Assembly (NCBI GenBank): GCA_009781425.1
Contig: WQYC01000005.1
Span: 1 to 64,000, forward strand
Reading direction: 5' to 3'
Length of the DNA: 64,000 bases
Source: Oscillospiraceae bacterium
GTDB taxonomy: Bacteria; Bacillota; Clostridia; Oscillospirales; Ruminococcaceae
In this document: positions 6,001 to 19,985 of the stretch, in pieces
Layout of the letters: each line of letters begins with the position of its first letter
How positions within the stretch are numbered: the first letter of the stretch is position 1
The notes under the pieces: model-generated
Told to the model about the DNA's origin: nothing
What the model saw: only the letters and a program-made list of their open reading frames with translations
Database searches by the model: none
Translations under genes and position numbers: made by a program

Positions 6001-9000
6001 GACCGAGTTTTCCCAGCCCATGAACGTATGCCCTATTCTGAAAGGTTCAGCGAAATTGGGGAACGTGAAGTCTTCGTTCGCTTTTGCCGTCCGCGTCTGC
6101 GGGAAGCCGTTAAGCTCGCCGCCGTTCGCATTAAACGTAATCGTGATTACTCTGCCTTGCCCCGAATTACCGGGAAGCGCAGTGCCGCCGCCTGTTATAT
6201 CATCGCCTGCAATGCCGCCTTTACCTGCCTTGCAGTCCGCGTCGCAAACAGGGTCGCAGTCACAAATGAATAGGTTCCCGCCGTCGCCGCCGTAAATTTC
6301 TCCGCCGTTATTTGTATTGCCGACTGTTCCTATGCCGCCGTCGCCGCCCATGCCGAAGCCCGAGCTTCCGCCGTTACCGCCTCTAATTATGCCTTTGTTT
6401 ATTATTTCACCGCTGCCGCCCGAAACGTGAACTCCTGCGCCGCCGTTGCCGCCTCTTGCATTTTCGGAGTCGCCGCCGTTACCGCCGATTACAGTTCCGT
6501 TGTTGACAACTCTGGCGCTTGCTCTGATTCCTGCGCCGCCGTTGCCGCCGTTTCCTGTGTCGGAGCTTGCGCCGTTACCGCCGCGAACGGTTACACCCGC
6601 CCCAATCACAAGCCCTCCGGTGTCGATTTGAACGCCAAAACGCCCCGTGCTTCCGTTTATTCCGTGACCGCCTTGAACAACGGACGTTCCGCCTGCGTTA
6701 TTAATAATTTCAATAGCGACTGCGCCGCCTGCTCTGACGGCGATAGTATTGAGAGGCGCGAAAATCCCGAAGCCGTTCATGTCGATTATGACGCTTGTAT
6801 TCAGCTCTAAGGTCTGCGTTAAATGTACGTCTCGCGTGAGCTTGATTGTTGGCGGACTTGTCGTGTTGTCAAGCTCTGCGAAGTCCGCGAATACATCGTC
6901 TACCTTGTCGGGAGTCAGCGGACTTGTGAGCGTTCCGCCCGGCTCTTTTACCACCCACTGCGGGTAAAGTATCACGCTCGGCGACGGGTCGCTCCACGCG
7001 CCCGCGAACACGCCGTTCTCGTCGATAATACGCGTGCCGCCGCTTGTTTCAGTCCAATAGCCGTTGAAGCTGTAGCCCGTAAGCCGAGGCAGGCTTGTGA
7101 TTTGTGTAGGCGTGCTGTCGAAGGTTGCGCTGTGAGTCGCCGCGCCGCTTGTTGTAGCACCTATTTGACTCAGCGAAATCAGCGTAGTATTCGCTGTCCA
7201 TTGCGCGAACAGCTGAATCGTCGCATTGTTTGTAGTTGACAGGTTATTCACCGACTGACGGTTGACATATACAGTTCCTGTGCCGTTTTGCGCTGTGTTC
7301 CAGTTACCAAACGTATAGCCGGTTCTGGTAAACTGATTATCCGCTAATAGCTGTGCTTGGTCGTAGGTAAAGCCTTGATTGAGCATCGTGCCGCTTGTGC
7401 TTCCGTTGCCGTTAAAGCTGATTGTATACGTATTCGCTGTCCAGCGTGCATGGAAGGTCGCGTTGCCGTCCCTTTGCCAAACGCCGCCTACTCCTGTGAA
7501 GCCGCTTACATTCGCCTGCATAGTTCCGTTTGCGGCGATGATTAAAACGCCGCTTGAATCCTCTGCAGTCCAATAGCCTGCGAAGGTATATCCCGGGCGG
7601 CTTGGTAAAGTAATTGCAGGCACAGCGCCGAAATTAACCGTTGCATTCCCTGAGCCGCCTGTACCGCCGTGACGGTTGAGCGTGATTGTATATGTATTCG
7701 GAATCCAGCGCGCGTAGAGCGTTGTTGCCGCCGTCCTCTGCCAAATCCCGCCCGCGCCTGTATAGTTCGTTACCGATGCTTGCAAAGTACCGTCAACGCT
7801 GATTACCTGCGAGCCCGTGCCGTCTGCGCCCGTCCAGTAGCCGCCGAAGACGTAGCCCGTTCTTGTCGGCGCAGAATAGCCTGTTTTTACCGCTGAATCG
7901 TAAACAATCGAGAAGCCTGTCGAGCCGCCCACACCGCCGTTTGTGTCAAGCGTGACGTTATATGTATTCGGCGACCAGTGCGCGTGAAGCGTCAAATCCG
8001 CTGTGCGAATCCAAACACGCCCTGCCGGACTGACTGCACCGTCGCGGTTGTACCACATCATTCCGCCGCCGTTCGCTGACTCGAAATATCCCTCGAACGT
8101 ATACCCTGTACGGGTTGGGCGGGTTAATGCCGGCAAAACCGAATCGTACACTGCCGTCAGGTTTGCCGAGCCGCCTGTGCCGCCTTGTCTGTCAAAGAAA
8201 ATCGTGTTTGTGTTGGCTGTCCAGTGCGCGTAAAGCGTAATATTCGCTGTGAAATTACACGTTCTTGCGCCCGTGCCGTTGGCGTTGAAGTAGCGCGTTC
8301 CTCCGCCGTTAACGGCGGAAAAATATCCCTGGAAGGTATATCCCGTGCGGGTTGGCGGGGTGATTGTCGGCATGGTAACATCAAAGGTCACTGTTGAGCT
8401 TGTATTTCCGCCCGTGCCGCTTTGACGGTCGAAGGTCGCAGTGTATGTATTAGCCTGCCATCTTGCCCAAAGCTGGGTGTTTCCTGCCGTTGTGTAAACT
8501 GCTGTATTTACTCTTGCGCCCGAGCCGTTGTACCACTGCACACCGCCCGAAGCCGCGTTTGTCGTCCAGTAACCCATGAAAGTATATCCGCTTCGTGCCG
8601 GTACGGCAACGCTTGCAGGGATTTGCGCGTCGTAGGTTACGCTTGTGCTTGCTGTGCCGCCTGTTATTGCTGTTGACGGGCTTACTATTACCGTGTTTGT
8701 ACCGTGGTAGGCTGTGCCTGTGTTGTTGTAGTTTATGTTGTAGACGTTTGGCGTCCAGTGGGCGTGCAGGCTTGTATTCCCTGTTAAGTTCCATGTCCTT
8801 GCAGACGTTCCGTCAGCATTGTAATACCGCGTGCCTGTGCCTCCTGCGCCGCCGAAATATCCTTGGAACGTGTAGCCCGTGCGCGTAGGACGTGTTATAG
8901 CAGGCATTGCCGCGTCGTAGGTCGCCGTTACGCTCGTTGTCCCGCCGCCGCCGCTTTGCATATTGAAGGTAACAGTCGAGGTGATGGCGCGCCACTGCGC

Positions 9001-10293
9001 AAACAAAGTTACGTCAGCAGTCATCGCAAACACTGCATTCGCCGCACGAACTGTCCCTGTTCCGTTTGCGGCAGTGTTCCAGCCGTTGAAAGTATAGCCT
9101 GTTCTTGAAATAGCTCCGTTAGACGTTGATGCACTTGCAACCGTAGCGTTCAGCCCGTTGCCGTATCTCATAGCAGGCAGAACCGTCCCCGTGCCGCCGT
9201 TGAGGTTATAAGTAAGCGTGCGGACAGGTTGATGACCAAGATTTGTAGTAGCCGCCAGATTTCCTGTCCTGTTCCAAACAGTATCGGAAAACCAAGAAAA
9301 AACAGTTGTATTTGCAGTACCGACAGTTACAGTTACACCATTGAAATCGGTAGCTGTTCCGGTTGATTGGGTGACGCTTGTGGCATTGGCTTGCAACGTC
9401 ATAGCCAGCGCACGATTTTCTGCAGGAACAGCAGTGGCATTACTATTCCAGTTTCCGACTATACGCCCTCTGTTTGGTCCGCCCGTTGCTCTAACCGCAC
9501 CGCATAACGCAACGTTATTGCGAACGTTATTTGCGTTAAGCTGTGCGACTACACCTAAAACACCGCCGACAGAATTGTTGCCTTGAACCGTGGGGGCGCG
9601 CGAAAGATTACGTTGAATTATTGCACTTGTGGCTGTAATTTCGTTTATATAATTATTCCCTACAATACCTCCGACACTGCTCCCAGCAGAAACGACACTG
9701 TTGTGTACATAGTTATCTTGTATAGTTCCGAAATTTGCTCCCGCTATACCGCCGACATTGTTTCCGGCAGTGAGATTAATATTTACATCAACACGGCATC
9801 TTTCGACTAATCCGCCGTCGCGGACAACGCCTGTAAGACCGCCGACCCAGTTTCCGCTTCCTGTTATATTGCCTGTGACCGTGAGGTTGCGGACAACGCC
9901 GTCAGTAACGCCGAAAAAGCCTTTGTTGTCGATGGTTCTCGATAAATTCATACCCGAGATTGTATATCCGCCGCCGCAGAAAGTTCCGCTGAAACGCGCA
10001 GTGTGCGTGCCTATGGGAGTCCATCCGTTTGTTTCGGCTGTCAGAGCAATGTTGTTCATCAGCTTTACGTGCTGACCCGAATACGAAGTGCCGTTAAGCA
10101 CGTTTGTTCTGAATTGGACCAGGTGTGCTTGAGTGGAAATGCGCCACGGGTCAGCGGCTGTGCCGCTTCCGCCGCCGCCTGGGTTCGCGCTTGCTTCAAT
10201 CACAAACAACGAGTCTTGTAAAAAGGGAAACGGAAAGAAAGCCCCTACAACCATAAAGAGGGCGATGATTATTGATGAAATACGTTTCTTCAT
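1..10293 (-). CDS. Giant multidomain secreted surface protein with InlB-type repeats and polytopic C-terminus (3' end beyond window)
   Basis: One frame is open from ATG 10293 to base 1 (3,431 codons visible, no stop), with AAGGTG upstream. Order by residue: signal peptide about 1-33; GLUG-like beta-helix segment about 40-340; nine InlB B/Flg_new repeats (GYTFxGY...LYAxW) about 354-1114; Gly/Asn-rich segment about 1115-1375; two more InlB repeats to about 1534; two related units of about 200 residues (about 1534-1735 and 2150-2360); MBG-like domains; a YDG domain (KVYDGNTNA) near 2630; a 16-cysteine stretch about 2712-2753; a Thr/Pro linker with TEPPV repeats; an acidic linker; an Ig-like domain about 2968-3070; then about eight membrane helices from about 3098, with a poly-Asp/Glu loop near 3135. 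It is probably a cell-surface adhesin fixed by its own membrane domain. The function of the membrane domain is unknown. Confidence 0.85.
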   Translation of the reverse strand, partial: MKKRISSIIIALFMVVGAFFPFPFLQDSLFVIEASANPGGGGSGTAADPWRISTQAHLVQFRTNVLNGTSYSGQHVKLMNNIALTAETNGWTPIGTHTARFSGTFCGGGYTISGMNLSRTIDNKGFFGVTDGVVRNLTVTGNITGSGNWVGGLTGVVRDGGLVERCRVDVNINLTAGNNVGGIAGANFGTIQDNYVHNSVVSAGSSVGGIVGNNYINEITATSAIIQRNLSRAPTVQGNNSVGGVLGVVAQLNANNVRNNVALCGAVRATGGPNRGRIVGNWNSNATAVPAENRALAMTLQANATSVTQSTGTATDFNGVTVTVGTANTTVFSWFSDTVWNRTGNLAATTNLGHQPVRTLTYNLNGGTGTVLPAMRYGNGLNATVASASTSNGAISRTGYTFNGWNTAANGTGTVRAANAVFAMTADVTLFAQWRAITSTVTFNMQSGGGGTTSVTATYDAAMPAITRPTRTGYTFQGYFGGAGGTGTRYYNADGTSARTWNLTGNTSLHAHWTPNVYNINYNNTGTAYHGTNTVIVSPSTAITGGTASTSVTYDAQIPASVAVPARSGYTFMGYWTTNAASGGVQWYNGSGARVNTAVYTTAGNTQLWARWQANTYTATFDRQSGTGGNTSSTVTFDVTMPTITPPTRTGYTFQGYFSAVNGGGTRYFNANGTGARTCNFTANITLYAHWTANTNTIFFDRQGGTGGSANLTAVYDSVLPALTRPTRTGYTFEGYFESANGGGMMWYNRDGAVSPAGRVWIRTADLTLHAHWSPNTYNVTLDTNGGVGGSTGFSIVYDSAVKTGYSAPTRTGYVFGGYWTGADGTGSQVISVDGTLQASVTNYTGAGGIWQRTAATTLYARWIPNTYTITLNRHGGTGGSGNATVNFGAVPAITLPSRPGYTFAGYWTAEDSSGVLIIAANGTMQANVSGFTGVGGVWQRDGNATFHARWTANTYTISFNGNGSTSGTMLNQGFTYDQAQLLADNQFTRTGYTFGNWNTAQNGTGTVYVNRQSVNNLSTTNNATIQLFAQWTANTTLISLSQIGATTSGAATHSATFDSTPTQITSLPRLTGYSFNGYWTETSGGTRIIDENGVFAGAWSDPSPSVILYPQWVVKEPGGTLTSPLTPDKVDDVFADFAELDNTTSPPTIKLTRDVHLTQTLELNTSVIIDMNGFGIFAPLNTIAVRAGGAVAIEIINNAGGTSVVQGGHGINGSTGRFGVQIDTGGLVIGAGVTVRGGNGASSDTGNGGNGGAGIRASARVVNNGTVIGGNGGDSENARGGNGGAGVHVSGGSGEIINKGIIRGGNGGSSGFGMGGDGGIGTVGNTNNGGEIYGGDGGNLFICDCDPVCDADCKAGKGGIAGDDITGGGTALPGNSGQGRVITITFNANGGELNGFPQTRTAKANEDFTFPNFAEPFRIGHTFMGWENSVRTFTQGGTYEADDVNGLLTGNGMVTVFAVWTANKYDVDFDSTGGSAVDSLYNIQHGETVPAPPAPTRTGYSFGGWYSDSALANPWIFSSNEVVSNTTLYAKWNDDIAPTGTVKIGSNVFAAFINTISFGLFFNSDITVEITGEDCGSGVAAIEYSLNGTDNWHIYTGSFTVPPNFKGRVYARITDNAGNVTIIASGGTVIYTDSEQDTASIEYIKGSVGDVTAAVKLNGNTVAGVRNGGNALSSSNFSVTGSTITFYASYLDSLEAGSYTLTVSYNPMGESFVNTAGNDEPQTTEITLLIKLPPLEGAATISGTNAIGQDLSVDTSALTGGGGAFGFQWQADGASITGANNAALTLTGAEAGKIITCIITRSDADGEVTATLGETVPYNIAIVNIGNAAGDTEVTLSASSGRAGDIITLSYVLGDGGGTDTNTLFFTGGTGLVSLTQAGASVAQNYAINTSDTASGVITITATFTHSYWIARTLSFPEGNQLRAYGDANFTNPAAVSDGTGLVTYISDNPSVAAVDENTGEITIISVGSAVISASVTTDNIYIPATASYTLTVEKAEQSAPQGLDKTNETRPLDDGKILGVTAGMEYKRSTDLLYTAVIGGEITGLSPGEYHVRYAETATHNASPDAVIIIEEWIEPEYFLTLTTEQNGVTTGTDSGNYIENNLIDIAAAANTGYTFISWTVSGANIADNTANPLTFLMPANDVTVTANFADITPPTGEITIGTNAFTAFLNTITFGLFFSDTIDVTVEGADSGSGVAGIEYYLSESAYTSASAMSGAIWESYAPFSISPSFKGYIYARITDNAGNEAIIRADGVVVYTDSMAVTTEINHFLGGGNKTAEISLGSNTFDEIHNGAALLTAGDYGVSGNIITIYAAYLNSLAEGSYTLTVSYNPLGEEFTSGDAPATTEITLNIIDPNVTITPVAGQSKVFGADDPQFTFTNSAGLPGSAFTGTLEREQGEDAGAYAFELGTLAPTDNSYSLNLSNEVFEITKTNILIGNQHQIFNITFADTSTRTVNLESLVTAYNLDGKPLTYTVQAYEGQAANISTGASVQDGTLSFNLESGLSIANVGETTVIPVNIGGFTNYSDVIINVVVTLTDKTVSEVIVAAPTNIHYGEALPAPLAVSTGGDDFDFHYDGITADGFNTPYSDLAPPALPGIYVITATLDTATNLGIGVSESFRILPKPLEWSAGTVEDKVYDGNTNATILTEPELLGVINGDDVTAISGNAGFASANVGSAAVTAGDYSVTGADLWKYAAPTAQPMFLNAAIICSGCNDCACATCGNSCSDCACAACNNSCNICGCPVCGDCGICDICEPPPVTTTTEPPVTTTEPPVTTTEPPVTTTTPPIATTTTNRPGGGYTPPVTTTPLVTVTTTPPVTTTTPAQITTIPPVTTSEPPTVVTSPPADTQEAPPPVTTNEPTAITEAPPIITIPPAIVTAASPPVNAFETPRPPQEEALPEEQHEEIFYEEPMIPEPETEEETEPEEEAKEEHIPVIVTDTTEPPTGLANLLSDIFPPSPAVHMSLDIEIGTSVAGKAISLEATGLMPLSELTITIHSTPRVVGTSMTCEAGSISINTVFPDDLEQGNHVIIAEGICPDGFAVQAVAPFQLDREGILTAFTGSAQLFEPIDPGDSRLARSLIAGVPLYDAQSEPETVAQVAVTFGLLGGIATIAGVSKKRVRKMIFKNNDDDEDDDDDDEQGWGDRFGLWKLSLFRKTGDKISVKLQEKTARTSFILNRFAGDGSWARAMFGSGGYLLWLAGIALGAYSSMQMGYHAMPPAFIFVVAIVMLGILDSGAGFLAWATIAVLAVVNGNAAGVDEIRTLVGMFTLFATTLILGGTRPLRRKYDAFNESKKRFVFDRFADYVMPTIYIILATSAILNAINGLSGLEFFSGEHFTIMKAAAIGAYWLRMLLEDFAENAFPMRNKAVRPEETGEQIMFLQWGAMLLYAGMFMVITTPFFGVGAAVIMILAFDIVPWMLSFIKERLP

Positions 10294-10350
10294 GATTAAT
10301 CACCTTGTAAATACTTATATACTTTAATTATTTTTTTGCATATATAGTAC

Positions 10351-10356
10351 ATTATA
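10351..10356 (-). promoter_or_regulatory. Extended -10 promoter candidate for the giant surface protein
   Basis: On the minus strand the sequence reads TGTTATAAT, a perfect -10 with an extended TGn motif, about 58 bases before the ATG. No good -35 is seen, which fits an extended -10 promoter or one needing an activator such as the neighbouring response regulator (inference). Confidence 0.4.
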
Positions 10357-10400
10357 ACATATCGCCCGCAATAAATCCGCAACAAAAACAGGCAAAAAAA

Positions 10401-10432
10401 GAAAAAACCGAAAATATTTTTTCGGTTTTTTC
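10401..10432 (-). terminator. Rho-independent terminator after the histidine kinase
   Basis: A perfect 14-bp stem (10401-10414 with 10419-10432) has a 4-base loop and A/T-rich arms ending in a T run. It lies just downstream of the kinase stop codon at 10444 on the minus strand and separates the two-component operon from the giant gene. Confidence 0.75.
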
Positions 10433-10443
10433 AAAAATTATAT

Positions 10444-11040
10444 TTATTTCTTCGGAATTTTGATTATAACGGTTGTGCCTTTGTTTATTTCGCTTGAAAT
10501 TTCAAGCGTTCCGCCGCATTGTTCCTTGATTCTTTGGGAAACGTTCGTAATACCTATATGCTCTTTTTCATCTTTTCCAGAGTTATGAACGTCATACCCT
10601 GCGCCGTCGTCTGCTATGGTTATAAAATTTTCGCTGCCGGCTTCGCAAATTGAAATTGTGATTGTTCCGCCGCCTTCCTTTTCGCCGATGCCGTGCTTGA
10701 CGGCGTTTTCAACAATCGGCTGAACAGTAAGCGGCGGCAGTAAAAAATCACTCGCTTCGATATTATAAATCACGTTCAGCGCATTGCCGTAAATCGCTTT
10801 TTCCAAGTCAAGATAGCCTTTTACGTGGTTTAACTCCTTTTCAATGCTGATTAAGCCTTTATAGCTCAGCGATTCCATGTTACTGCGTAAATATGCAGAA
10901 AAATCGAGTGCCGCCTTTTTGGCTTTTTCGGGGTTTTTAGTGCAAAGATTGGCAATTGCGGATAGTGCGTTATGCAAAAAATGCAGTTGAATTTGTGCGA
11001 AATAATCTATAGAATTCATATTATTTAACTCTGCTTTCAT
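10444..11040 (-). CDS. Soluble LytS/YpdA-type histidine kinase, minimal
   Basis: A 198-residue kinase core of the His_kinase (LytS) class. The phosphoacceptor region QLHFLHNALSAI lies near residues 17-28. The HATPase part has the N-box (PIVENAVKHG) and G-box (DDGAGYD). It lacks membrane segments and any recognisable sensor domain, unlike typical LytS kinases, so it must sense a cytoplasmic cue or work through a partner. The ATG at 11040 overlaps the 3' end of the response regulator gene by 20 bases. A second ATG at 11019, one base after the regulator's stop, is an equally good coupled start. It very likely phosphorylates the adjacent regulator. Confidence 0.85.
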   Translation of the reverse strand: MKAELNNMNSIDYFAQIQLHFLHNALSAIANLCTKNPEKAKKAALDFSAYLRSNMESLSYKGLISIEKELNHVKGYLDLEKAIYGNALNVIYNIEASDFLLPPLTVQPIVENAVKHGIGEKEGGGTITISICEAGSENFITIADDGAGYDVHNSGKDEKEHIGITNVSQRIKEQCGGTLEISSEINKGTTVIIKIPKK

Positions 11041-11818
11041 TGAATTTTCCGATTGTCATTTCTGCCCAGCTGTACTGCGCCATGTACTGCCCCGCATAAG
11101 CATTTACGCAGCTCGGGTCGCCCTTCATGAAGCCGTAGCTGTCGCATATTATCCTTTCGGGAATAACGGCAATACTGTTATGACGCTTCGATATAATATC
11201 GGCAATTCCCGCTTCATTCAATGTTTTTATTAAATCGCTGAACAAGTTCCGCAGATATGATTTTAAATTATCGGTGTTCGGTTTATTTTCCCACAAAACT
11301 GAAATAAGCTCGCTTGTATCTATTTCCGCGCCATCTCTGTCGATTAAATATGCAAGCAGCTCTTTTGTCTTTTTATAAGCAAATTTAAGCGTTTTTCCAT
11401 GTGAATATATTTCAAAATTACCGAAGGCTTGTGCGTAAACCCTTGCGTTGCTTTTGAGCTCAACGGGATAACGTAAATTCTCGATTTCGCGCGCTACGGC
11501 TTCCTTTGTAACTGCCTTTAAAATATATCCGCTTGGGTAAAGCCCGAGGGCTTCGATTGCATATTCTGTATAAGCTGTCACAAAAATTATATTAATTCTC
11601 GGGTTATAATCCTTCAGCTTTTTTGCAACTGCAATACCGTTCATTCCCCACATTTTTATATCTAAAAAAGCTATGTCGCAGGGGTTATCCTTTGCAAACG
11701 TAAGAAGCTCAGAGGGCTTATTAAACGGAAAGATTTCCGCTGACGGCTGAACCTCAGCGATTGTGTCGGTGAGCAGCTCTAACGCTTGCTCGCTGTCGTC
11801 TATGGCAAGGATTCTCAT
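11021..11818 (-). CDS. Response regulator with receiver and SARP-type (winged-helix plus BTAD-like) output
   Basis: 265 residues. Receiver domain is about 1-120, with the phosphoacceptor Asp in FLDIKMWGMNG near residue 55 and a conserved Lys near the end. The output region, about 128-260, resembles the Trans_reg_C/SARP plus BTAD arrangement of COG3947 regulators. ATG 11818 is preceded by AAAGGAG. Translation is coupled to the downstream kinase. A good promoter lies upstream. Lying between two giant surface-protein genes, it is a candidate regulator of either or both (inference). Confidence 0.85.
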   Translation of the reverse strand: MRILAIDDSEQALELLTDTIAEVQPSAEIFPFNKPSELLTFAKDNPCDIAFLDIKMWGMNGIAVAKKLKDYNPRINIIFVTAYTEYAIEALGLYPSGYILKAVTKEAVAREIENLRYPVELKSNARVYAQAFGNFEIYSHGKTLKFAYKKTKELLAYLIDRDGAEIDTSELISVLWENKPNTDNLKSYLRNLFSDLIKTLNEAGIADIISKRHNSIAVIPERIICDSYGFMKGDPSCVNAYAGQYMAQYSWAEMTIGKFNESRVK

Positions 11819-11856
11819 AGCGGATTTGCTCCTTTAATGTTGTGATTATAATAGAT

Positions 11857-11885
11857 ATTATAGCACGAAAATAGTTAAACTTCAA
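11857..11885 (-). promoter_or_regulatory. Sigma-A-type promoter of the two-component operon
   Basis: On the minus strand TTGAAG (11880-11885), a 17-base spacer and TATAAT (11857-11862) precede the response regulator by about 40 bases. Confidence 0.6.
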
Positions 11886-11908
11886 GAAGAATTAATTTTT
11901 TACATGAA

Positions 11909-11937
11909 AAACAAGGCGCGGAATCCGCGCCTTGTTT
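11909..11937 (-). terminator. Rho-independent terminator of the FecR-domain gene
   Basis: A 14-bp perfect inverted repeat, 11909-11922 and 11924-11937, with a GC-rich core (GGCGCGGA) followed on the minus strand by a T run. It lies 11 bases after the stop codon of the gene ending at 11948. Confidence 0.8.
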
Positions 11938-11947
11938 ATTAGTTCGT

Positions 11948-14900
11948 TTAACCGGGAGGAGGAGGCGGTGGGGGCGGAGGAGGAGGGGGTGCAGGTGCCA
12001 AGTTCCCCAACGCATTGAATAATTCTTGATACGCATTATCTATTTGCTGTTGTGTTGTCGCTGTACTTAGTGCGGTTTTAGCCGCGTTTATAGCAGCGGC
12101 GAAGAGAAACGCGCCGGCGAGTCCTTCCGCATGAGCTATCAAGCCTTCTAACTCGCTCCTGTCGAGCGGAGGAGGAGGGGGTGCAGGTGCCAAGTTCCCC
12201 AACGCATTGAATAATTCTTGATACGCACTATTGACTTGCTGTTGTGTTGTCGCTGTACTTAGTGCGGTTTTAGCCGCGTTTATCTGAGCGGCGAAAATGA
12301 ACGCAACAGGAAGCTCTTCCGCATAGGCGATTAAATCTTCTAATGCACTCATATCGGGCGGGGGCGGCGGAGGTGGCAGAACCGCTCTTGCTCTGTCCAT
12401 TTGAGCACGAAGATTTGTTATAGTCTCGTCAATATGTGCTTGCGTGACTGTTAAATCATCGTATACAGTTTCTGCCGCTTGCCTTGCGGCAACCAACGGA
12501 GCGTGGTGGGAGGAAATCAAACTCATAGTCGAAATACCTCCGGCTATAATAAAATTCAGTAACTCTATTTCAAGAGTTCTTGCCTCAGTAATCGTAGCTC
12601 TCCACACAGTCGAGTCAAGCGTCAGCATAAAGCTTATCGTTTCAAGCAATTCAACGAGCATCTGCGTTGTGGCATTAACCTCTGTTTGTGTTGCAGACGG
12701 AGAAATATTTTTCGAGTCATTTATTCTGTTATTCAATATTAACCAAGAATTCATAAAATGCATACTAAATGTAGCATTTATAAAATCGGATAACCCTTGC
12801 AAAAATTCTTCCGCTTCCTCTATTGCCGCGTCTAACGCGGTAAAGCTTACAGTAGGCAGAAGCGCTCTTGCTTGCGGGAGCAAGGTGAAAAGGAAATTTG
12901 CCGCCGCCGCGTTAACATCAGACTGTGTCAGCGCAGGATTCGCGAAGAGCGCGTTAGCGTCAGCGATTGCGGCGGTTAAGCCTTCTGCGACAGTCCGAAG
13001 TGCCGAGTCTTGCGTCTCATTGTATAAATCCATAAGCTCACTCGCGAGAATTGTACCATCGTGTATTACGGCGTCTAACGCAGTGGTGTTAAAAATTAAT
13101 TTTCTTGCCGCGCTGATTGCGGCGCGAAGGTTCGCCGCCACTCTGTCAACGTCGCTCTGCGTGACATCGGGATTATCAAAAATATTATTGTTGCCGTTAG
13201 TGTTGCTTGCTATTGCTTCGCCTAACGAATTTGCGGCGCTTAAAGCTTCATAGTTCCAAAGGAATGGCGGTAACGTCAATACACCGGACAAATCCCACAA
13301 TTCATCTGCATAGGCTGTCGCTTCGGCGAGTGCCGCGTCATATTCAACAACGTCAAGCTTAGCTCTCCTTATCTCTCTCTCCGCGTTTAAAGCAGAAACT
13401 GCAAGAGTTCCCGTTGCGCTCCAAAGAACGCTCTGTGTGATTGTGGGGCTCTCAAGAACTGCTCTTACGTTGGCGAGATTTAAGTTCACTTCATCAAGAT
13501 TGGATTGCAATTGCGTTTTTCCTGTTTGAATTAACTTTTGCAATTCAATTATAACTGCTTCGGCGTCGCGGATTGCCGCGTATGTCGCAGTAGTATTGAG
13601 CGAAGCTATTCTCGCCGCCTGCGCTGCCGTGCGGAGCTTCACCGTTGCCGCATTTATATCGGCTTGCAAGGAAAATGCCTTTGTCCATATCGGCATCCCG
13701 ACAAGGTCAAGCACTCCATTTAAATCATTGAAAGCTTCTGCCGCTTGTTGGTTGCCGCTGTTCATCAACGGTTCTAATTGTGCTAAAAGCATTAAAACTT
13801 CATTAAATTCAACATAGAAATCAGCGTAGTCGAGAAGATTCCAAGCATCGTTTTCAAAGCTGTACTTCCCTGCGGGAATGACTCCCGCGCTTGCTCCCGC
13901 GATGTTAGATATATCCCATGCCGCCCCGCTGAACCTATCGTTTAATATAAGAACATTAACCCTTAATTCAGCGACATGGATAAATCCACCGTAAGAACCA
14001 ACGATTCTTACACCGGACGGTATATTTATCGTGCTTATCACGTTGAAGTTGAAACTACCGTTGTTTATAAAATTAGCAGCGGAGGTATAATCAAATGTAC
14101 TTCTGTCGTCAATTGAGATAGAACCGTTACTGACAAGCTCTGCCGCGCCGCTGTAAATAAATTCACTGCCGCCTTTTACAATTATTTCAGACGTTTCTGT
14201 TGTGTTCAGAACGCCGTTGTTTGTAAACACTCCCGCACTTGTGATAAGAGGGAGAGAGAGGAAACGTGCAGACAAGTTATCGGTTGTGACGGGAAGGTTT
14301 GGGTCATATTCGGGGTTGTGTATCGAGGTTATGGATTGTTCCAAAACTTCGATTGTACCGCCGTTTGTGATAACGCCGTTGTTGTCAAAGTTTCCTTTAA
14401 TAATTAAATCGCCGTTGTTTATGATTACGCCGCCCGGGTGATTTATAAATTGCGCGGCTTCATGAATTGGTTCACTTCCGACGAGCTTCGCTCTCCACAG
14501 GCGAACCCAATCGCCATACGGGCTCCAGCCTTCAATAGGAGGAACAGAGTAATCTGTTTCAGCTTCCCAAGCTTCGCCTTCAACCATAATCATGCCGCCT
14601 CTTATATGACGGTCAATCGGAATTGGGAATTCTTCGCCCGCCGCTGTCGTTATATCGCCCAAAGCTTCTTCAAGCACGATTCTTCCGTAGTTTTCAAATT
14701 TTGAGGTCGCAAGTGCCCATATTGACGAACCTGCTTCAATCGTGATTAATCCGTGGTTAATAATAGAATTGCTAATTCCGACCACAGTTCTCCACATACG
14801 CGCTCTGCCTAATTCGTCTACTCCTTCGTAGGCTCCCATAACGCGTATCTCACTGTTTTCGCCGACTATAATACTTATTTTCTTGAAGACTATAAATAAG

Positions 14901-17785
14901 TTTACTATTTCAAAATAACCGTCAAGAATCAGTTCGTCGCCGTCCTCTGCGTCGTTCTGTGCATTGTAAATATTTGCATATTCACCAATCAGCTCGCCGT
15001 CGCGCATGAGCAGCCATACCTTGTCGCCTCTTTCGGGGAGCGGGTGCTGTGCTTTGCTGCCCCACTGCGCTGTTGCGTCGCAGGCATTACGTGCAGTGAT
15101 TAATGTATTTGTTTCTTCATAAACCTCGCGCTGAGTGCTGTTGAGCAAGCCCGTAAAGCTGCTGATTGCTTTGTAAACAGGCGAATTTATGCGGAGAGTT
15201 TCAAGAACAAAGCGCCCTGTATCGCTGAGCTTAACATCTGCTCCTGCGAAGTCGTCCAAAGCCTGCGAAGTAACCCAGCGTTCGTTGTTGAATACGTCGC
15301 TGCCGTCTTCACTGATTTGCAAACTTTCAACAAATCTTTCGGATACAAACACGGCTACCGCTAATCTTTCAAGCTCAATCTTATCGCCGACTTTTTGAGC
15401 GGCTTTAAATTTTACAACTGCCGCGTCAAGTGCCGCCGCCGCGTCTGATAAGTCCTTCGGGGTTTCAGCGTTGCGCCACATAGCCTCTGCGAGCGCAATA
15501 GCGTTCATCATTGCGTCATGCTCCGCTTTCGTAACCCATAAGGTGCCGCGGATTGCGCCGCTTGCATTATCAGCTATGAAAATATTTCTCAGTGCGGCAT
15601 AAGCGTCTTCAATCGCTTTGTTCAAAACCTGTTTATTTAATGTAACTTCGGCTAATCCGAGCTGCTTCGCTGACTCGAAATTTGCCATCGCGTCTTCTAA
15701 ATCCTCAACCATAGCAGAATCTCTGGATTTAATCGCAACGTCTAAAGCTTGCGCCGCTTCGCTCAAGCTTTGAAGCTCGTCACTTAAATCCTGCAATGCA
15801 TCTGTTAAGTCGGATTCTGTAGAGTCTAATTCCGTGCGTGAAATGCCGGCGATTCTATCGTTCTGCTCATCAATTAACCTCTCGGCATTTGATTCTGTAG
15901 CAGTTCTTGAAAAAACCTCTTCAAATATATCTTGCACTATTGTTACAGAAGCTTCATATTCCTCGCGAGCTTCTTCAACGGCTTCTTCAGCTTCTTTTAC
16001 AGCTTCCTCCGCTTCTTCGACGGCGGATATTATTCTTTCTATATTTCTTTCTGCTTCGTCAACAACGGCTTGCGCTTTTGCCGCTTCTATTGAAAGCAAA
16101 GCTATTTGATTTGCATCATTTGCAATGCTTATCGCTTGTCTTAAAGCGTTCATCTGTGTCTGTGTAACCCAGTATCTGTCTTCGCCTATATCCTTTCCGT
16201 CATTAGATACATACACGTTTACCCATAACGAATTTGCTTCGTCGATAGCGTCAAAGAGCTTGTCAGCGGAAGTATCCTCGGGCGCGCCCCCTGCTTCTTT
16301 GTTATTTATAAATATATTAATGACCTCTTCAAGCTGCGACGCGGTAATAACGCCGCTTTCGGGGTCGTATCCCGCTGCTTTGAGTGCTAAGAAGTCAGCA
16401 CAGTCAGGCAGTACGGGTGTAGCGGGTTCACTTATAGGCGCGAAGCCTAAGAAGCTGCCGAAAGCGGCAAGAAATACACTTATGCTTGACTGAGCAGACT
16501 GGATTTGAGAATCTGTTCCGAAATCAATAGTTTTAGTGTGCGCGAACGATTCTTCTGCGTCTTTTAACGCAATCTCCATCATGTTCATATACGGCTCTTG
16601 AACAAAAAATCTGTTTTGGGGAATATTATCGGGAGAGTCACTCACAAGCACTCTCGATTTTGTCGAAAGCGCGAGTCTTAATGCGGATTCCATAGCTATG
16701 GGGACGGGGATTAAACCAGATACTCGCGGACTGTTATTGAAAGCCTCAATTGCGGCTTCTAATTCCGCAACTGCCGCATTTAATTCTCCGTGAGTAGTTG
16801 CAGCAGCTAATAAATTTGTCGCCTTGGCTACAGCCTCTTGAAAAGCTGTAAGAGCTTCCTGCGTAACACTTACCTGCCCCTGCATAAGATTAGCGGCACT
16901 TTCTACTTTTGAGTTCGCCAAAAGAACATTTGCGTTACCTAATGCATCTGTCAAGTTTTCTTTAGCGACTGTAAATAAGCCTGCTAAAATGCCTTCGTCG
17001 TCCGAACCGCCGCCAGCTCCTCCGCTTCCGCCGCCGGCACCGCCGATGCTTCCGAGAATTTCGTCAATAACTTCTTCATAAAGCGCGAATCCTGCTCTCA
17101 AGAGAGCAGCGGCAAGGGCATCAACGTCCTTCTCGCCGATGACGCCGTTTCTAACAAAGCGTTTCGGGTTATCAATTATAGTTTGGAGAACGAAAGGACT
17201 CGCTTCGGAAAAAGTGAAAGCTGAAAGCGTATGCCGCGGTGCTCCGCCGCCTGTGGAAATCCGCATGACGCGGTTGTTGCGCAGTTCTCTGCCGTCAACA
17301 ATACCCATGCCTTCAAACATGGTGAAAATAACTAAGTCGTCAGACGCGCGCTCGACCGCAAAGTAAGTCCCGCGTATGCTGAGCGCGGAGCTCCCCACAC
17401 GCACGTCAACGGTATCCGATGTTTTCTGCCGCATGGCATCAACCGTAATACCGCCTTTTAAAACTGTAATAGAAAGGTTTCTTCTCGAAACCGAGTCAAC
17501 CCGAACCTCACTGTTCTTGTTGACCTGCACCAACGAGCCGTCGTCAAGCTTCAAGAAGCAAAGAGAATCATCGCCCGTGATGACGCGGTATGTATCGGAA
17601 AGCCTTTGTCCGCCTCTTGCGGCGAATTCCCTTGTCCCTCCGCGCGTCATTCTGACATCTTTCCCTTCAATCTCGTAAATCGTGATTGTCCGGGACGATA
17701 CGCTTTCCGACGCCGCCGCTTCGATTTGCGCCAGCGGGACTACTATGCATATCGCAAGGAAAATAGCAAGGATTTTCTTAAACAT
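11948..17785 (-). CDS. 1,945-residue secreted FecR-domain protein with FIVAR-like helical repeats and polyproline tail
   Basis: The signal peptide is about residues 1-25. A FecR domain follows at about 38-180 (beta-rich, with SIRGTYFAV). Then come a Gly/Ser linker near 245-265; long alpha-helical FIVAR-like repeats and coiled coil (alternating AEEAVKEAEEAVEEA near 590-620); a beta-helix-like stretch about 960-1260 (repeated NNG/ITNGG turns); more FIVAR-like helices; and two 64-residue C-terminal repeats nearly identical at DNA level (offset 192 bp), each ending in a proline run. The last residues are 14 prolines and a glycine. No LPXTG, membrane helix or cell-wall module is visible. Start ATG has AAAGGAG upstream and a TTGACA promoter. 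FecR domains here probably bind or scaffold at the envelope rather than sense iron (inference). Confidence 0.8.
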   Translation of the reverse strand: MFKKILAIFLAICIVVPLAQIEAAASESVSSRTITIYEIEGKDVRMTRGGTREFAARGGQRLSDTYRVITGDDSLCFLKLDDGSLVQVNKNSEVRVDSVSRRNLSITVLKGGITVDAMRQKTSDTVDVRVGSSALSIRGTYFAVERASDDLVIFTMFEGMGIVDGRELRNNRVMRISTGGGAPRHTLSAFTFSEASPFVLQTIIDNPKRFVRNGVIGEKDVDALAAALLRAGFALYEEVIDEILGSIGGAGGGSGGAGGGSDDEGILAGLFTVAKENLTDALGNANVLLANSKVESAANLMQGQVSVTQEALTAFQEAVAKATNLLAAATTHGELNAAVAELEAAIEAFNNSPRVSGLIPVPIAMESALRLALSTKSRVLVSDSPDNIPQNRFFVQEPYMNMMEIALKDAEESFAHTKTIDFGTDSQIQSAQSSISVFLAAFGSFLGFAPISEPATPVLPDCADFLALKAAGYDPESGVITASQLEEVINIFINNKEAGGAPEDTSADKLFDAIDEANSLWVNVYVSNDGKDIGEDRYWVTQTQMNALRQAISIANDANQIALLSIEAAKAQAVVDEAERNIERIISAVEEAEEAVKEAEEAVEEAREEYEASVTIVQDIFEEVFSRTATESNAERLIDEQNDRIAGISRTELDSTESDLTDALQDLSDELQSLSEAAQALDVAIKSRDSAMVEDLEDAMANFESAKQLGLAEVTLNKQVLNKAIEDAYAALRNIFIADNASGAIRGTLWVTKAEHDAMMNAIALAEAMWRNAETPKDLSDAAAALDAAVVKFKAAQKVGDKIELERLAVAVFVSERFVESLQISEDGSDVFNNERWVTSQALDDFAGADVKLSDTGRFVLETLRINSPVYKAISSFTGLLNSTQREVYEETNTLITARNACDATAQWGSKAQHPLPERGDKVWLLMRDGELIGEYANIYNAQNDAEDGDELILDGYFEIVNLFIVFKKISIIVGENSEIRVMGAYEGVDELGRARMWRTVVGISNSIINHGLITIEAGSSIWALATSKFENYGRIVLEEALGDITTAAGEEFPIPIDRHIRGGMIMVEGEAWEAETDYSVPPIEGWSPYGDWVRLWRAKLVGSEPIHEAAQFINHPGGVIINNGDLIIKGNFDNNGVITNGGTIEVLEQSITSIHNPEYDPNLPVTTDNLSARFLSLPLITSAGVFTNNGVLNTTETSEIIVKGGSEFIYSGAAELVSNGSISIDDRSTFDYTSAANFINNGSFNFNVISTINIPSGVRIVGSYGGFIHVAELRVNVLILNDRFSGAAWDISNIAGASAGVIPAGKYSFENDAWNLLDYADFYVEFNEVLMLLAQLEPLMNSGNQQAAEAFNDLNGVLDLVGMPIWTKAFSLQADINAATVKLRTAAQAARIASLNTTATYAAIRDAEAVIIELQKLIQTGKTQLQSNLDEVNLNLANVRAVLESPTITQSVLWSATGTLAVSALNAEREIRRAKLDVVEYDAALAEATAYADELWDLSGVLTLPPFLWNYEALSAANSLGEAIASNTNGNNNIFDNPDVTQSDVDRVAANLRAAISAARKLIFNTTALDAVIHDGTILASELMDLYNETQDSALRTVAEGLTAAIADANALFANPALTQSDVNAAAANFLFTLLPQARALLPTVSFTALDAAIEEAEEFLQGLSDFINATFSMHFMNSWLILNNRINDSKNISPSATQTEVNATTQMLVELLETISFMLTLDSTVWRATITEARTLEIELLNFIIAGGISTMSLISSHHAPLVAARQAAETVYDDLTVTQAHIDETITNLRAQMDRARAVLPPPPPPPDMSALEDLIAYAEELPVAFIFAAQINAAKTALSTATTQQQVNSAYQELFNALGNLAPAPPPPPLDRSELEGLIAHAEGLAGAFLFAAAINAAKTALSTATTQQQIDNAYQELFNALGNLAPAPPPPPPPPPPPPG
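11979..12362 (-). repeat. Two tandem 192-bp repeats encoding 64-residue FIVAR-like units
   Basis: Blocks at about 11979-12170 and 12171-12362 match closely. A stretch from the GGAGGAGG run through about 60 bases is identical in both. Each encodes one helical unit plus an (AP)P-rich linker. The near identity points to recent duplication. Confidence 0.75.
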
Positions 17786-17847
17786 GATGATTTCTCCTTT
17801 GTTTTAAGTATTTAATAATTATATACATAAGTTTAAAATTTAGTTAC

Positions 17848-17876
17848 TATTTATAATATCATACATGGTGTGTCAA
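17848..17876 (-). promoter_or_regulatory. Promoter of the FecR-domain gene
   Basis: On the minus strand TTGACA (17871-17876), 17 bases, then TAAATA (17848-17853), about 60 bases upstream of ATG 17785. The Shine-Dalgarno sequence AAAGGAG is at about 17793-17799. Confidence 0.5.
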
Positions 17877-17952
17877 ATCTGTACCAGATATTGGCATTGT
17901 GTTTAAATTCTTTATTTTGGGCAAACCTCAGTAATGAGGGGAGTGGGATTTT

Positions 17953-18120
17953 TTGGTAGTTTTTCGCTATATTAACGGGCAGAAGCTTGAGTCGCAGAGC
18001 ATGAAAAATTATGTTATTGAAAGCGATATGATTTCAAGAGCAATAGCCGGAGTGAATCAAAGAATGACAGAAATTTCGACAAGAGACGTATCAAAGGAAA
18101 TAACTGTTGAAATTATCTAA
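17953..18120 (+). CDS. Small ORF of 55 codons upstream of the recombinase, unknown
   Basis: A TTG start at 17953 is preceded by GAGGGGAG at 17936-17943, and the frame is open to TAA at 18118-18120. A shorter in-frame start is ATG 18001 (39 residues). The product is polar with a short hydrophobic start (VVFRYINGQKLESQ) and ends in TVEII. I recognise no family. It lies 58 bases before the recombinase on the same strand, and the recombinase -35 falls in its last codons. A recombination directionality factor is one possibility from position only. It could equally be the 3' remnant of a lost gene. It is the only coding candidate in the 393 bases between 17786 and 18178. Confidence 0.35.
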   Translation: MVVFRYINGQKLESQSMKNYVIESDMISRAIAGVNQRMTEISTRDVSKEITVEII

Positions 18121-18135
18121 AAAATATGTTATAAT
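18107..18135 (+). promoter_or_regulatory. Sigma-A-type extended -10 promoter of the recombinase
   Basis: TTGAAA (18107-18112), 17 bases, then TGTTATAAT ending at 18135. The leader carries a small hairpin (GAGCA/TGCTC, 18138-18153). The match to the vegetative consensus suggests that transcription is not confined to sporulation. Confidence 0.6.
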
Positions 18136-18178
18136 GGGAGCAGAGGCTTGCTCTCGTTATTTCATGTGAGGTTAAATT

Positions 18179-19567
18179 ATGAAAAATAAAAAAGCGGCTA
18201 TTTATATTCGTGTTTCTACCGAAGCACAGCGCGAGGAAGGCTACTCCATTGACGCGCAGAAGGAAATGCTTACGGCGCACTGCGTTTCAAAAGGCATAAA
18301 AGACTATGACTTCTATATTGACGGCGGTTTTACGGGGAGCAACATCGAGCGCCCCGAGCTCGGGCGGCTTATAAGCGACATCAAAAACGGAGTCGTGAAC
18401 AGCGTTTTAGTGTACAAGCTCGACAGGCTCTCTCGTAGCCAAAAGGACACGCTGTACTTGATTGAAGACGTTTTCAATCCGCACGGCGTTGACTTCGTGT
18501 CGCTCAACGAGAGCATGGACACCTCCACACCGCTCGGACGTTTAATGCTCGGGATTTTGTCCGCGTTTGCACAGCTTGAACGCGAAAATATCCGCGAGCG
18601 CACCCGAATGGGCATGAAGGAACGCGTCAAGGCGGGCTTGTGGATGGGGGGCGGCAGAATCCCCTTTGGCTACGATTACGACAAGGAGCAAGGGATTCTC
18701 GTTCCGAACAAGGATGCGGAAACTGTTCGCAAGATTTACGATTTATACTTAGAGGGCTATTCCTGTTCAAAAATAGCGCAGATGGTCGGCTTGAAGTATG
18801 AAAAGCTTGCTTTGCAGATTCTCACCCGCAAGTCTAATGCGGGCTTCATCAATTACAACGGTGAGGAATATATCGGCAGGCATGAGCCGATTATCAGCCT
18901 TGAAACCTATCAAAAGGCGATGGATTATATGCTCTCGCGCTCGGTTACGCGTCCGAGCGACAGCAATTACTTATTAACAGGGCTTTTGTATTGCGGCAAG
19001 TGCGGCGCGAAGCTGCGCTATCAGAAATGGGGCAAGCACGACTGCAAGTTAGTCTGCTATTCGCAGGATAAAAACAAGCCCCACCTGCATAAAGACCCGA
19101 ACTGCGACAACGGACGGCAGTGGGCGGCGGACATAGAGGGCGCAATTGTACACGATTTGTTCACATTCTCGTTAAAGGGGAAAAAGGCAGTTAATATCAA
19201 GGAAGCGACACAAAGTATCATAGAAATATTAAAAAAACAATATGACGAGATTTCCAAAAAAATAAAACGCCTTTACGTTATTTATTCTGAGGGCGGTGAT
19301 AATATTCTGCTTGAAACCATTGAGGATTTGCGCAAGCAGCTCACCGATATTCAAAAGCAAATCGAGCTTGAGCAGGAGCGGAATTCTATCAGCGGACAAA
19401 TGCAAAGCTTGCAGAAAACGCTGACTACGCTTAAAGAAACATGGGAATACATGACGAGACACGAGCAAAAAAATATAGTCAGGAGCTGTATTAGCAAAAT
19501 CGTCATCACCGATAACCAGGTTGAGGTTTTCTATAAATTTGATGATTTTATGAGGGAGAGTACTTGA
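18179..19567 (+). CDS. Large serine recombinase (SpoIVCA/integrase type)
   Basis: 462 residues, intact. The resolvase catalytic domain is about 5-150, with the nucleophile Ser in YIRVST near residue 13 and the Arg motif YKLDRLSRS. A Recombinase domain is about 165-260, followed by a zinc ribbon with CGKCGAK and a later Cys pair (about 280-310), then a coiled-coil motif about 345-420. This is the architecture of large serine integrases of phages, transposons and the sigK skin recombinase SpoIVCA. ATG 18179 has GTGAGGT upstream. The gene's 3' end lies about 65 bp from the broken end of sigG, as expected for an integrase next to its attachment site. It probably integrates or excises the left-hand block. 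Confidence 0.92.
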   Translation: MKNKKAAIYIRVSTEAQREEGYSIDAQKEMLTAHCVSKGIKDYDFYIDGGFTGSNIERPELGRLISDIKNGVVNSVLVYKLDRLSRSQKDTLYLIEDVFNPHGVDFVSLNESMDTSTPLGRLMLGILSAFAQLERENIRERTRMGMKERVKAGLWMGGGRIPFGYDYDKEQGILVPNKDAETVRKIYDLYLEGYSCSKIAQMVGLKYEKLALQILTRKSNAGFINYNGEEYIGRHEPIISLETYQKAMDYMLSRSVTRPSDSNYLLTGLLYCGKCGAKLRYQKWGKHDCKLVCYSQDKNKPHLHKDPNCDNGRQWAADIEGAIVHDLFTFSLKGKKAVNIKEATQSIIEILKKQYDEISKKIKRLYVIYSEGGDNILLETIEDLRKQLTDIQKQIELEQERNSISGQMQSLQKTLTTLKETWEYMTRHEQKNIVRSCISKIVITDNQVEVFYKFDDFMREST

Positions 19568-19603
19568 AATATGTAGCAGAATAGATTATAATATAAGTAG
19601 AGG

Positions 19604-19921
19604 TTAAACGAAATTTCCACTATGGACATTCCTTGGCACTGCATACGTACTAAATTTTACGTTCAAGCTCGTATCAAAATTGTCAATAGATTTTATGAGC
19701 CCGATACAGCCGACCTGGAATAGGTCGTCAGGGTTCTCGCCGCGCCCCGAAAAACGCTGAATTACGCTCAGCACTAACCGCAGGTTCCCGTTAATGAGGT
19801 CTTCGCGCGCTTTCATGTCGCCGGTCTTGATTTTATTCAGTAATTCGATTTTTTCCGCCTCCTTGAGGACTTTTAAAGTGGCAGTATTTACGCCGCTGAT
19901 TTCAACCTTGTTATAATACAA
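19604..19921 (-). CDS. sigG: 5' part of sigG (RNA polymerase sigma-G), interrupted after region 2
   Basis: The first 96 or so codons match sigma-G. The N-terminal NKVEISGVNT and NGNLRLVLSVIQRF, DDLFQVGCIGL and NVKFSTYAVP of region 2 are diagnostic. After the Pro codon at 19634-19636 the match stops. Intact sigma-G continues with MIIGEIRRYLRDN, while here nine unrelated residues lead to a stop at 19604. Promoter melting and regions 3 and 4 are missing, about 60% of the protein. A TTG start at 19921 follows AGGAG. The break is beside a serine recombinase gene, suggesting an element that splits the gene and could restore it by excision. Alternatively it is a dead fragment, with an intact copy elsewhere. 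Confidence 0.88.
   Translation of the reverse strand: MYYNKVEISGVNTATLKVLKEAEKIELLNKIKTGDMKAREDLINGNLRLVLSVIQRFSGRGENPDDLFQVGCIGLIKSIDNFDTSLNVKFSTYAVPRNVHSGNFV
19625..19640. other. Probable recombination junction (att half-site) in sigG
   Basis: Homology to sigG ends between the GTG-CCA codons (19634-19639) and the following AGG. The next base A could be shared with the expected ATG codon, so the crossover lies within a few bases of 19633. The partner half-site is not in this window, so the core dinucleotide cannot be read. Confidence 0.55.
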
Positions 19922-19957
19922 ATCGAATCACTCCTGTCAAAAAAATTGCATACATAA

Positions 19958-19985
19958 AGTATTGACCGCGGCGATTCCTTTATTC
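19958..19985 (-). promoter_or_regulatory. Weak candidate forespore promoter of sigG
   Basis: On the minus strand GAATA (19981-19985) and CAATACT (19958-19964) are separated by 16 bases. They resemble sigma-G/sigma-F elements (GnATR ... CATnnTA) but the spacing and -10 are imperfect. Confidence 0.25.

Follow-up and report, generated by a model that had tools for sequence, protein, structure and literature searches.

sigK acts in the mother cell, which dies, whereas the DNA of the forespore, where sigG acts, is inherited. In the skin element in sigK of Bacillus subtilis and Clostridioides difficile, as in the sigG locus described here, the gene of a sporulation sigma factor is interrupted, a large serine recombinase (LSR) is present and the joint is in frame; in C. 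difficile, according to the accessible part of PMC5025042, the small directionality factor CD1234 confines skin excision to the mother cell. Excision of the SPbeta prophage likewise rebuilds a sporulation gene, spsM (PMC4191935, in its accessible part), but spsM is a late spore-envelope gene and encodes no sigma factor, and the case involves one phage and one topology. In gin (in gerE) and yin (in yabG), serine recombinases again split small sporulation genes and excision is linked to sporulation, as far as the accessible portions of PMC5595907 and PMC10747680 go; gerE, unlike sigG, is a mother-cell regulator (PMC5595907, same portion), and the word sigG is absent from the text of either paper. 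The fdxN element of heterocystous cyanobacteria resembles the sigG case in that a serine recombinase, XisF, carries out excision in a differentiating cell. That cell is terminal and serves nitrogen fixation. To our knowledge, the programmed rearrangements known in sporulating or differentiating bacteria (skin, gin, the cyanobacterial elements) occur in cells without descendants. We found no report of an interrupted sigG in the open-access literature, which is weak evidence of absence because subscription journals and preprints lie outside that scope.

The split of sigG in the window (the whole stretch of 64,000 nucleotides analysed, from an Oscillospiraceae bacterium) is confirmed. A minus-strand ORF at 19604-19921 matches positions 1-94 of the sigma-G profile TIGR02850 (E=1.9e-43), where the match ends, and after the proline of STYAVP the ORF gains nine unrelated residues (RNVHSGNFV) before its stop; profile and translation thus agree with the preliminary description, which had the sigma-G frame end right after that proline. 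The intact SpoIVCA-like serine recombinase that it placed about 65 bp away is also there, with Resolvase, Recombinase and Zn_ribbon_recom domains in one protein (Pfam) and its stop 67 bp from the joint (Table 1). This LSR matches the XisF model NF041201 only distantly (134 bits, under the cut-off of 375). Because the same cut occurs at the same residue in dozens of other genomes, the split is not a matter of chance.

The window's own genome (2.55 Mb, 67 contigs, 97.66% complete) contains no full-length sigG; all eight of its sigma-G profile matches are partial, the best being the 3' half, and the search for another intact copy proposed earlier gave none. The 3' half had been predicted beyond the left edge of the window, on the minus strand and starting MIIGEIRR; it exists, beside a matching half-site, but on another contig (C57). 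Joined in silico at the CC dinucleotide, the two halves read A V P M I L in frame. The proposed comparison of the two junctions revealed this CC as a common core with mirror-image arms, that is, the 2-bp core and imperfect inverted arms of LSR attachment sites: the attL arm is identical to the reverse complement of the C57 arm at 17 of 23 positions, and TAGTGGAAA is present in both arms, equidistant from CC on each side. With no intact sigG and a 3' half beside a matching half-site, the preliminary reading of a sigG split by an element with an LSR is supported overall.

Contigs C5 and C57 both end within the interruption, which, assuming direct order of the halves, measures at least 20.3 kb and presumably includes window positions 1 to 17785. 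Gene order beside the halves differs from that in genome G012, and one inversion accounts for the difference; after that inversion, we infer, direct order would hold in the window's genome. No phage structural genes were recognised among the ORFs and Pfam matches of window positions 1-18000. In the same region (1-17785), two giant minus-strand proteins of surface type (more than 3431 and 1945 aa) flank a histidine kinase and a response regulator. Relatives of the same genus offer no empty site for comparison, as none was found with the window's flank genes next to an intact sigG.

Table 1. Features of the window at and around the split sigG, with the 3' half on contig C57
Feature	Position	Strand	Basis
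Giant repeat protein, open at contig end	1-10293	-	ORF, Pfam
Histidine kinase	10444-11040	-	ORF, Pfam
Response regulator	11021-11818	-	ORF, Pfam
FecR-domain giant protein	11948-17785	-	ORF, Pfam
Sigma-F-like site GTTTA-N14-GGCAAACCTC before small ORF	17901-17929	+	Score 11 of 13; -10 box weak in the window
Small ORF, 55 aa (LVVFRYINGQKL...), candidate recombination directionality factor	17953-18120	+	Family just upstream of related LSRs
LSR, 462 aa, convergent with sigG 5' half	18179-19567	+	Pfam PF00239, PF07508, PF13408; PHROG integrase phrog_95, 1.4e-120
attL arm (AAGGAATGTCCATAGTGGAAATTTC...)	19608-19634	-	Mirrors C57 arm beside 3' half
CC dinucleotide in Pro codon of STYAVP, inferred crossover point	19635-19636	-	Sole bases common to both junctions
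sigG 5' half, N-terminal 96 residues, ...FSTYAVP	19635-19921	-	TIGR02850 match and translation; ORF continues to 19604
Sigma-F-like site GAATA-N14-GTCAATACTT before sigG 5' half	19957-19985	-	Motif match
sigG 3' half, start MILGEVKRYL	G000:C57:718-1200	+	Profile positions 92-253, E=9.7e-74

Splitting of sigG extends well beyond this genome. Of 41 genomes drawn as relatives, 30 yielded a full-length sigG; the gene is split in the window's own genome, G012 and G025, and G008 has a lone 5' half. At the level of the order, two draws were treated as one set of 394 genomes, of which 29 are LSR-bearing (a match to the window's LSR at E<=1e-100), and a profile match at E<=1e-100 was taken as full-length sigG. 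Such a gene is absent from 28 of the 29 LSR-bearing genomes versus 55 of the 365 without such a match (Fisher 4e-20, related genomes each counted separately), and 47 of those 55 are without any match at 1e-58. Both halves occur in 26 of the 29, including G150, G176 and G289, where the 3' part matches from position 133-143 only; G280 has only the 3' half and G228 only a 5' part. The sole LSR-bearing genome of the order with full-length sigG is G393. Like G167, it combines a complete sigG with an additional, diverged half; at only 68% (G393) and 89% (G167) identity to the complete copy, the two copies were rejected as two states of one gene. The extra half lies beside an att-like site in both (L129 in G393, L146 in G167) and may have travelled with an element. 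In the closed genome G014, a second partial 3' part of 73 residues, 77% identical to that of the window's genome, lies 0.8 kb downstream of an intact sigG (L048, about 8483-8701). Three other candidates were rejected: in G096 the sigG match runs into the contig end, and the matches in G090 and G144 were judged to belong to other sigma factors.

The preliminary description had also asked whether relatives show the same truncation without a recombinase. Outside this LSR clade the truncation was seen in two of the 365 order genomes, G358 and G381; the 5' half of G358, however, adjoins another, distant LSR with a small ORF, and G381 was read only over 7.8 kb around its 3' half. At class level, nine further LSR-bearing genomes were found among 391, three of them with coordinates identical to genomes in the named-species set; all nine have the 3' half, seven also the 5' half, and none a full-length gene. 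Scanning the LSR alignment over 84,980 named species genomes gave at least 80 loci, and among the matches listed a sigG half is present in 43 of the 53 loci L151-L203 and in none of the 27 loci L204-L230. Again among the matches listed, 11 genomes of the LSR clade have no sigG half near the LSR (ten of L151-L203 plus L204, with short flanking DNA in some, e.g. L162 and L172); full-length sigG occurs in none of them, a 3' half elsewhere in all 11 and a 5' half elsewhere in ten. The L223 genome, with a partial related LSR (49% over 323 residues), has no sigG match. In Agathobaculum sigG is split in ten of 11 sampled genomes; G279, from the same genus, carries a sigG-like gene without interruption and shows no LSR at the cut-off used. 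The split also occurs in named isolates, namely Agathobaculum massiliense Marseille-P4005, Agathobaculum sp. Marseille-P7918, Butyricicoccus sp. Marseille-Q5471, Flavonifractor sp. An112 (halves direct, 6.4 kb apart) and Cuneatibacter sp. NSJ-177 (halves inverted, 30 kb apart), so it is not only a matter of metagenome assembly.

Several observations point to phages as the source of the recombinase. In the LSR tree, 61 sigG-adjacent, 12 non-adjacent and six phage rows stand apart from 29 other LSRs, two changes being sufficient, and the phage rows are scattered among host rows (five changes for six rows); L298, one of the other LSRs, and the LSR of G358 form long branches whose placement is unsure. 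On IMG/VR contigs of 63-148 kb the LSR is followed by a palindrome, the putative attP, which matches itself at 23 of 24 positions in L293, 18 in L290 and L304, and 17 in L292, all higher than any of 500 shuffles, and at 17 of 24 in L291, where the best shuffle gave 18. Inspection by eye found a similar small ORF before the LSR on phage contigs L291, L292 and L293, and an HNH-repeat-like ORF after it on L292, L293 and L304. The window's genome has the order of the phage contigs, with small ORF, LSR and arm on one side and, on the far side, arm and HNH-repeat-like ORF. The latter, a 200-aa protein beside the 3' half, has no match in NCBIfam or PHROGs, and its 218-aa relative in G008 matches a homing-endonuclease-associated repeat weakly, below cut-off; inspection by eye places such proteins near several sigG halves or phage att sites, but a search recovered them in only three of 295 order genomes. 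After the lone 5' half of G008 (L044, 43-1793) comes an HNH-repeat-like ORF of equal orientation, and an endolysin gene (phrog_3513) is close by; this locus looks like a prophage in sigG in the other orientation. The best match in the phage collection, MT839977 (5.9 kb), was considered as an excised circle and rejected, since this scaffold is linear and carries an LSR together with a sigG 3' half.

Judged from these comparisons, sigG is genuinely split by an LSR system of phage origin, repeatedly and in part as a fixed state. That phage contigs carry the same module, that an endolysin gene lies beside the G008 half and that some genera contain both split and intact species would also suit plain damage, in which a phage or element landed in sigG, the host no longer sporulates and nothing rejoins the gene. 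As a general account we consider this very improbable, given how the halves are preserved and that nearly all sampled Agathobaculum share the split, while for single genomes such as the window's it is possible. Purifying selection acts on both halves. In nine Agathobaculum genomes the 5' half has a median dN/dS of 0.082 and the 3' half one of 0.054, in six Flavonifractor genomes both stand at 0.036, and neither set contains stops; intact sigG of the window's genus gives 0.07 and 0.05, with dS saturated in 23 and 35 of 36 pairs. SASP genes are forespore genes and belong to the sigma-G regulon. A SASP gene is retained in 37 of 38 split genomes (the exception, G274, is 81% complete), as in 3 of 3 genomes with intact sigG and 6 of 12 without a sigG match, and this retention, too, speaks against damage. 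In three Agathobaculum genomes the SASP gene is itself split (L270 in G332, L271/L272 in G350, L273/L274 in G401), with its parts 4.1, 20 and 23 kb apart, a different LSR of 557-558 aa directly before the 3' part, and a common GAGGT core between mirror-image arms.

The attachment-site arms are preserved as well. Among genomes from which both halves were fetched (G008, G167, G274, G280, G381 and G393 yielded one half only and were left out), all 34 pairs have junction arms that mirror each other around the same CC, matching on average at 15.6 of 23 positions within a pair; arms compared across genomes reach 12.0, and shuffled arms 6.7 (sd 2.2). The CC-CC joint, built in silico, is in frame in every one of the 34, so that here, as in skin, a sporulation gene is cut in two with both parts present and recombination would restore its reading frame. 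Both arms are retained even where the halves lie 30-757 kb apart, which damage would not lead one to expect. Conservation of both halves, and the natural Met codon at which the 3' half begins, would also fit a split sigma factor whose halves are made as separate polypeptides that assemble; we find this scarcely credible, because the cut falls inside conserved region 2, paired arms and an LSR would be needless, and a Shine-Dalgarno match of at least 5 nt, present before 30 of 34 5' halves, is lacking at the native Met of all 34 3' halves and occurs in 2 of 34 when every in-frame start further upstream is allowed. This Met has no such match in intact sigG either (0 of 28). Rejoining of split sigG by the LSR system we consider very likely.

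The two halves were found on one contig in 17 pairs, direct or inverted and separated by 2.5-757 kb. Twelve are direct and in normal order, at 2.5 kb (L153, L165), 6.3-6.4 kb (L174, G079, G109, G162, G235), 6.7-6.8 kb (G402, L181), 8.6 kb (L185), about 14.7 kb (L151) and 17 kb (G212). Four are inverted, at 3.4 kb in G315 (a 290-contig draft), 30 kb in G422, 41 kb in G421 and 757 kb in G356 (on one contig of 4.0 Mb). In G350 the halves share a strand in reversed order, 112 kb apart, so joining would place sigG on a 112-kb circle. The smallest interruptions contain little beyond small ORF and LSR; of those of 2.5 kb, that of L165 has one additional gene, and that of L153 also holds an HNH-repeat-like ORF and two tRNA genes (Thr, Trp; L153:9503-9692), which means that the intervening DNA may not be dispensable in growing cells. 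The LSR adjoins the 5' half in the window, lies inside the interruption in L153, L165 and L170, and sits elsewhere in others, e.g. L204. The idea of one insertion has to give way to a recurrent system in which the LSR can sit away from sigG and the halves can be inverted, two features that are new in comparison with skin.

The LSR is preceded by a small ORF at 42 distinct loci, with a median length of 55 aa and a median distance to the LSR of 3 nt; at 23 of the 42 the two overlap or are no more than 10 nt apart. The small ORF typically has R-Y-I-N-G near its start and gave no match in NCBIfam or PHROGs. Its position and size make it a likely directionality factor of the LSR; two known elements possess directionality factors of 72 and 53 residues (PMC10747680, in the part accessible). 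Whereas CD1234 of skin is under sigma-E and SpoIIID (PMC5025042, in its accessible part), the sigG LSR operon has a sigma-F-like site. Such a site, scoring at least 11, lies 14-40 nt before the small ORF in 20 of 34 rows, whereas of 853 upstream regions used as controls 61 have one (Fisher 8e-14). Leaving Agathobaculum aside, 10 of 20 rows have it (Fisher 6.5e-7), the motif being short and the rows related to each other. A looser test gave 37 of 63 versus 183 of 623, and dinucleotide shuffles of each region gave a median P of 0.12, with P<=0.05 in only 7 of 34 rows. In ten of ten Agathobaculum genomes a sigma-F-like promoter, GTATA-N15-GGGGAAAAT, also precedes the 5' half. A sigma-F-like promoter before the LSR operon together with the 5' half's own promoter makes sigma-F, LSR, joined sigG and sigma-G the likely order of events, and the forespore most likely the place of rejoining.

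These promoters also bear on phase variation, in which the LSR would flip or excise sigG at random in growing cells and only part of the population could sporulate, with no developmental timing. Four of the 17 same-contig pairs (G315, G356, G421, G422) do have a switch-like, inverted layout, and excised and integrated subpopulations are described for yin in the accessible part of PMC10747680. We nevertheless regard it as unlikely: a sigma-F-like promoter precedes small ORF and LSR, and the split state of all LSR-bearing order genomes except G393 shows no mixture of on and off.

The explanation that we consider probable as a whole is that a phage-derived LSR rejoins sigG in the forespore, timed by sigma-F. 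Temperate phages would use sigG as attB, leaving each half with one attachment-site arm, and in several host lineages the interruption would have become a fixed part of the genome. Once sigma-F is active in the forespore, the small protein and the LSR would be made and would recombine the two sites at the CC within the proline codon (STYAVP|MI), excising the DNA between direct halves and inverting it between opposed ones; the uninterrupted sigG would then give sigma-G. Because the spore inherits a forespore rearrangement, the split state must be restored later, presumably after germination. A further-reaching proposal, quite possible though we advance it tentatively, is that every sporulation cycle rearranges the germ line: during growth sigG would exist only in pieces, as would an SASP gene in three Agathobaculum genomes, a sigma-F-driven LSR with its directionality factor would rebuild them in the forespore, and the LSR alone would split them again after germination, by excision or by inversions of up to 757 kb.

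The sigG system works like skin but in a forespore gene, skin and gin having targets that act in the mother cell (as far as the accessible parts of their sources go), and with layouts unreported in the sources compared. The data suggest that spore formation requires the cell to cut its own DNA and join it again. If so, the rearrangement forced by split sigG would take place in the forespore and so reach the descendants, making a way back necessary; a DNA-joining step would stand between sigma-F and sigma-G; gene searches that call these genomes sigG-less would be accounted for; and a developmental master gene would be a recurrent landing site of phages. Since split sigG occurs in the cultured gut genera Agathobaculum, Flavonifractor and Cuneatibacter, these predictions are testable.
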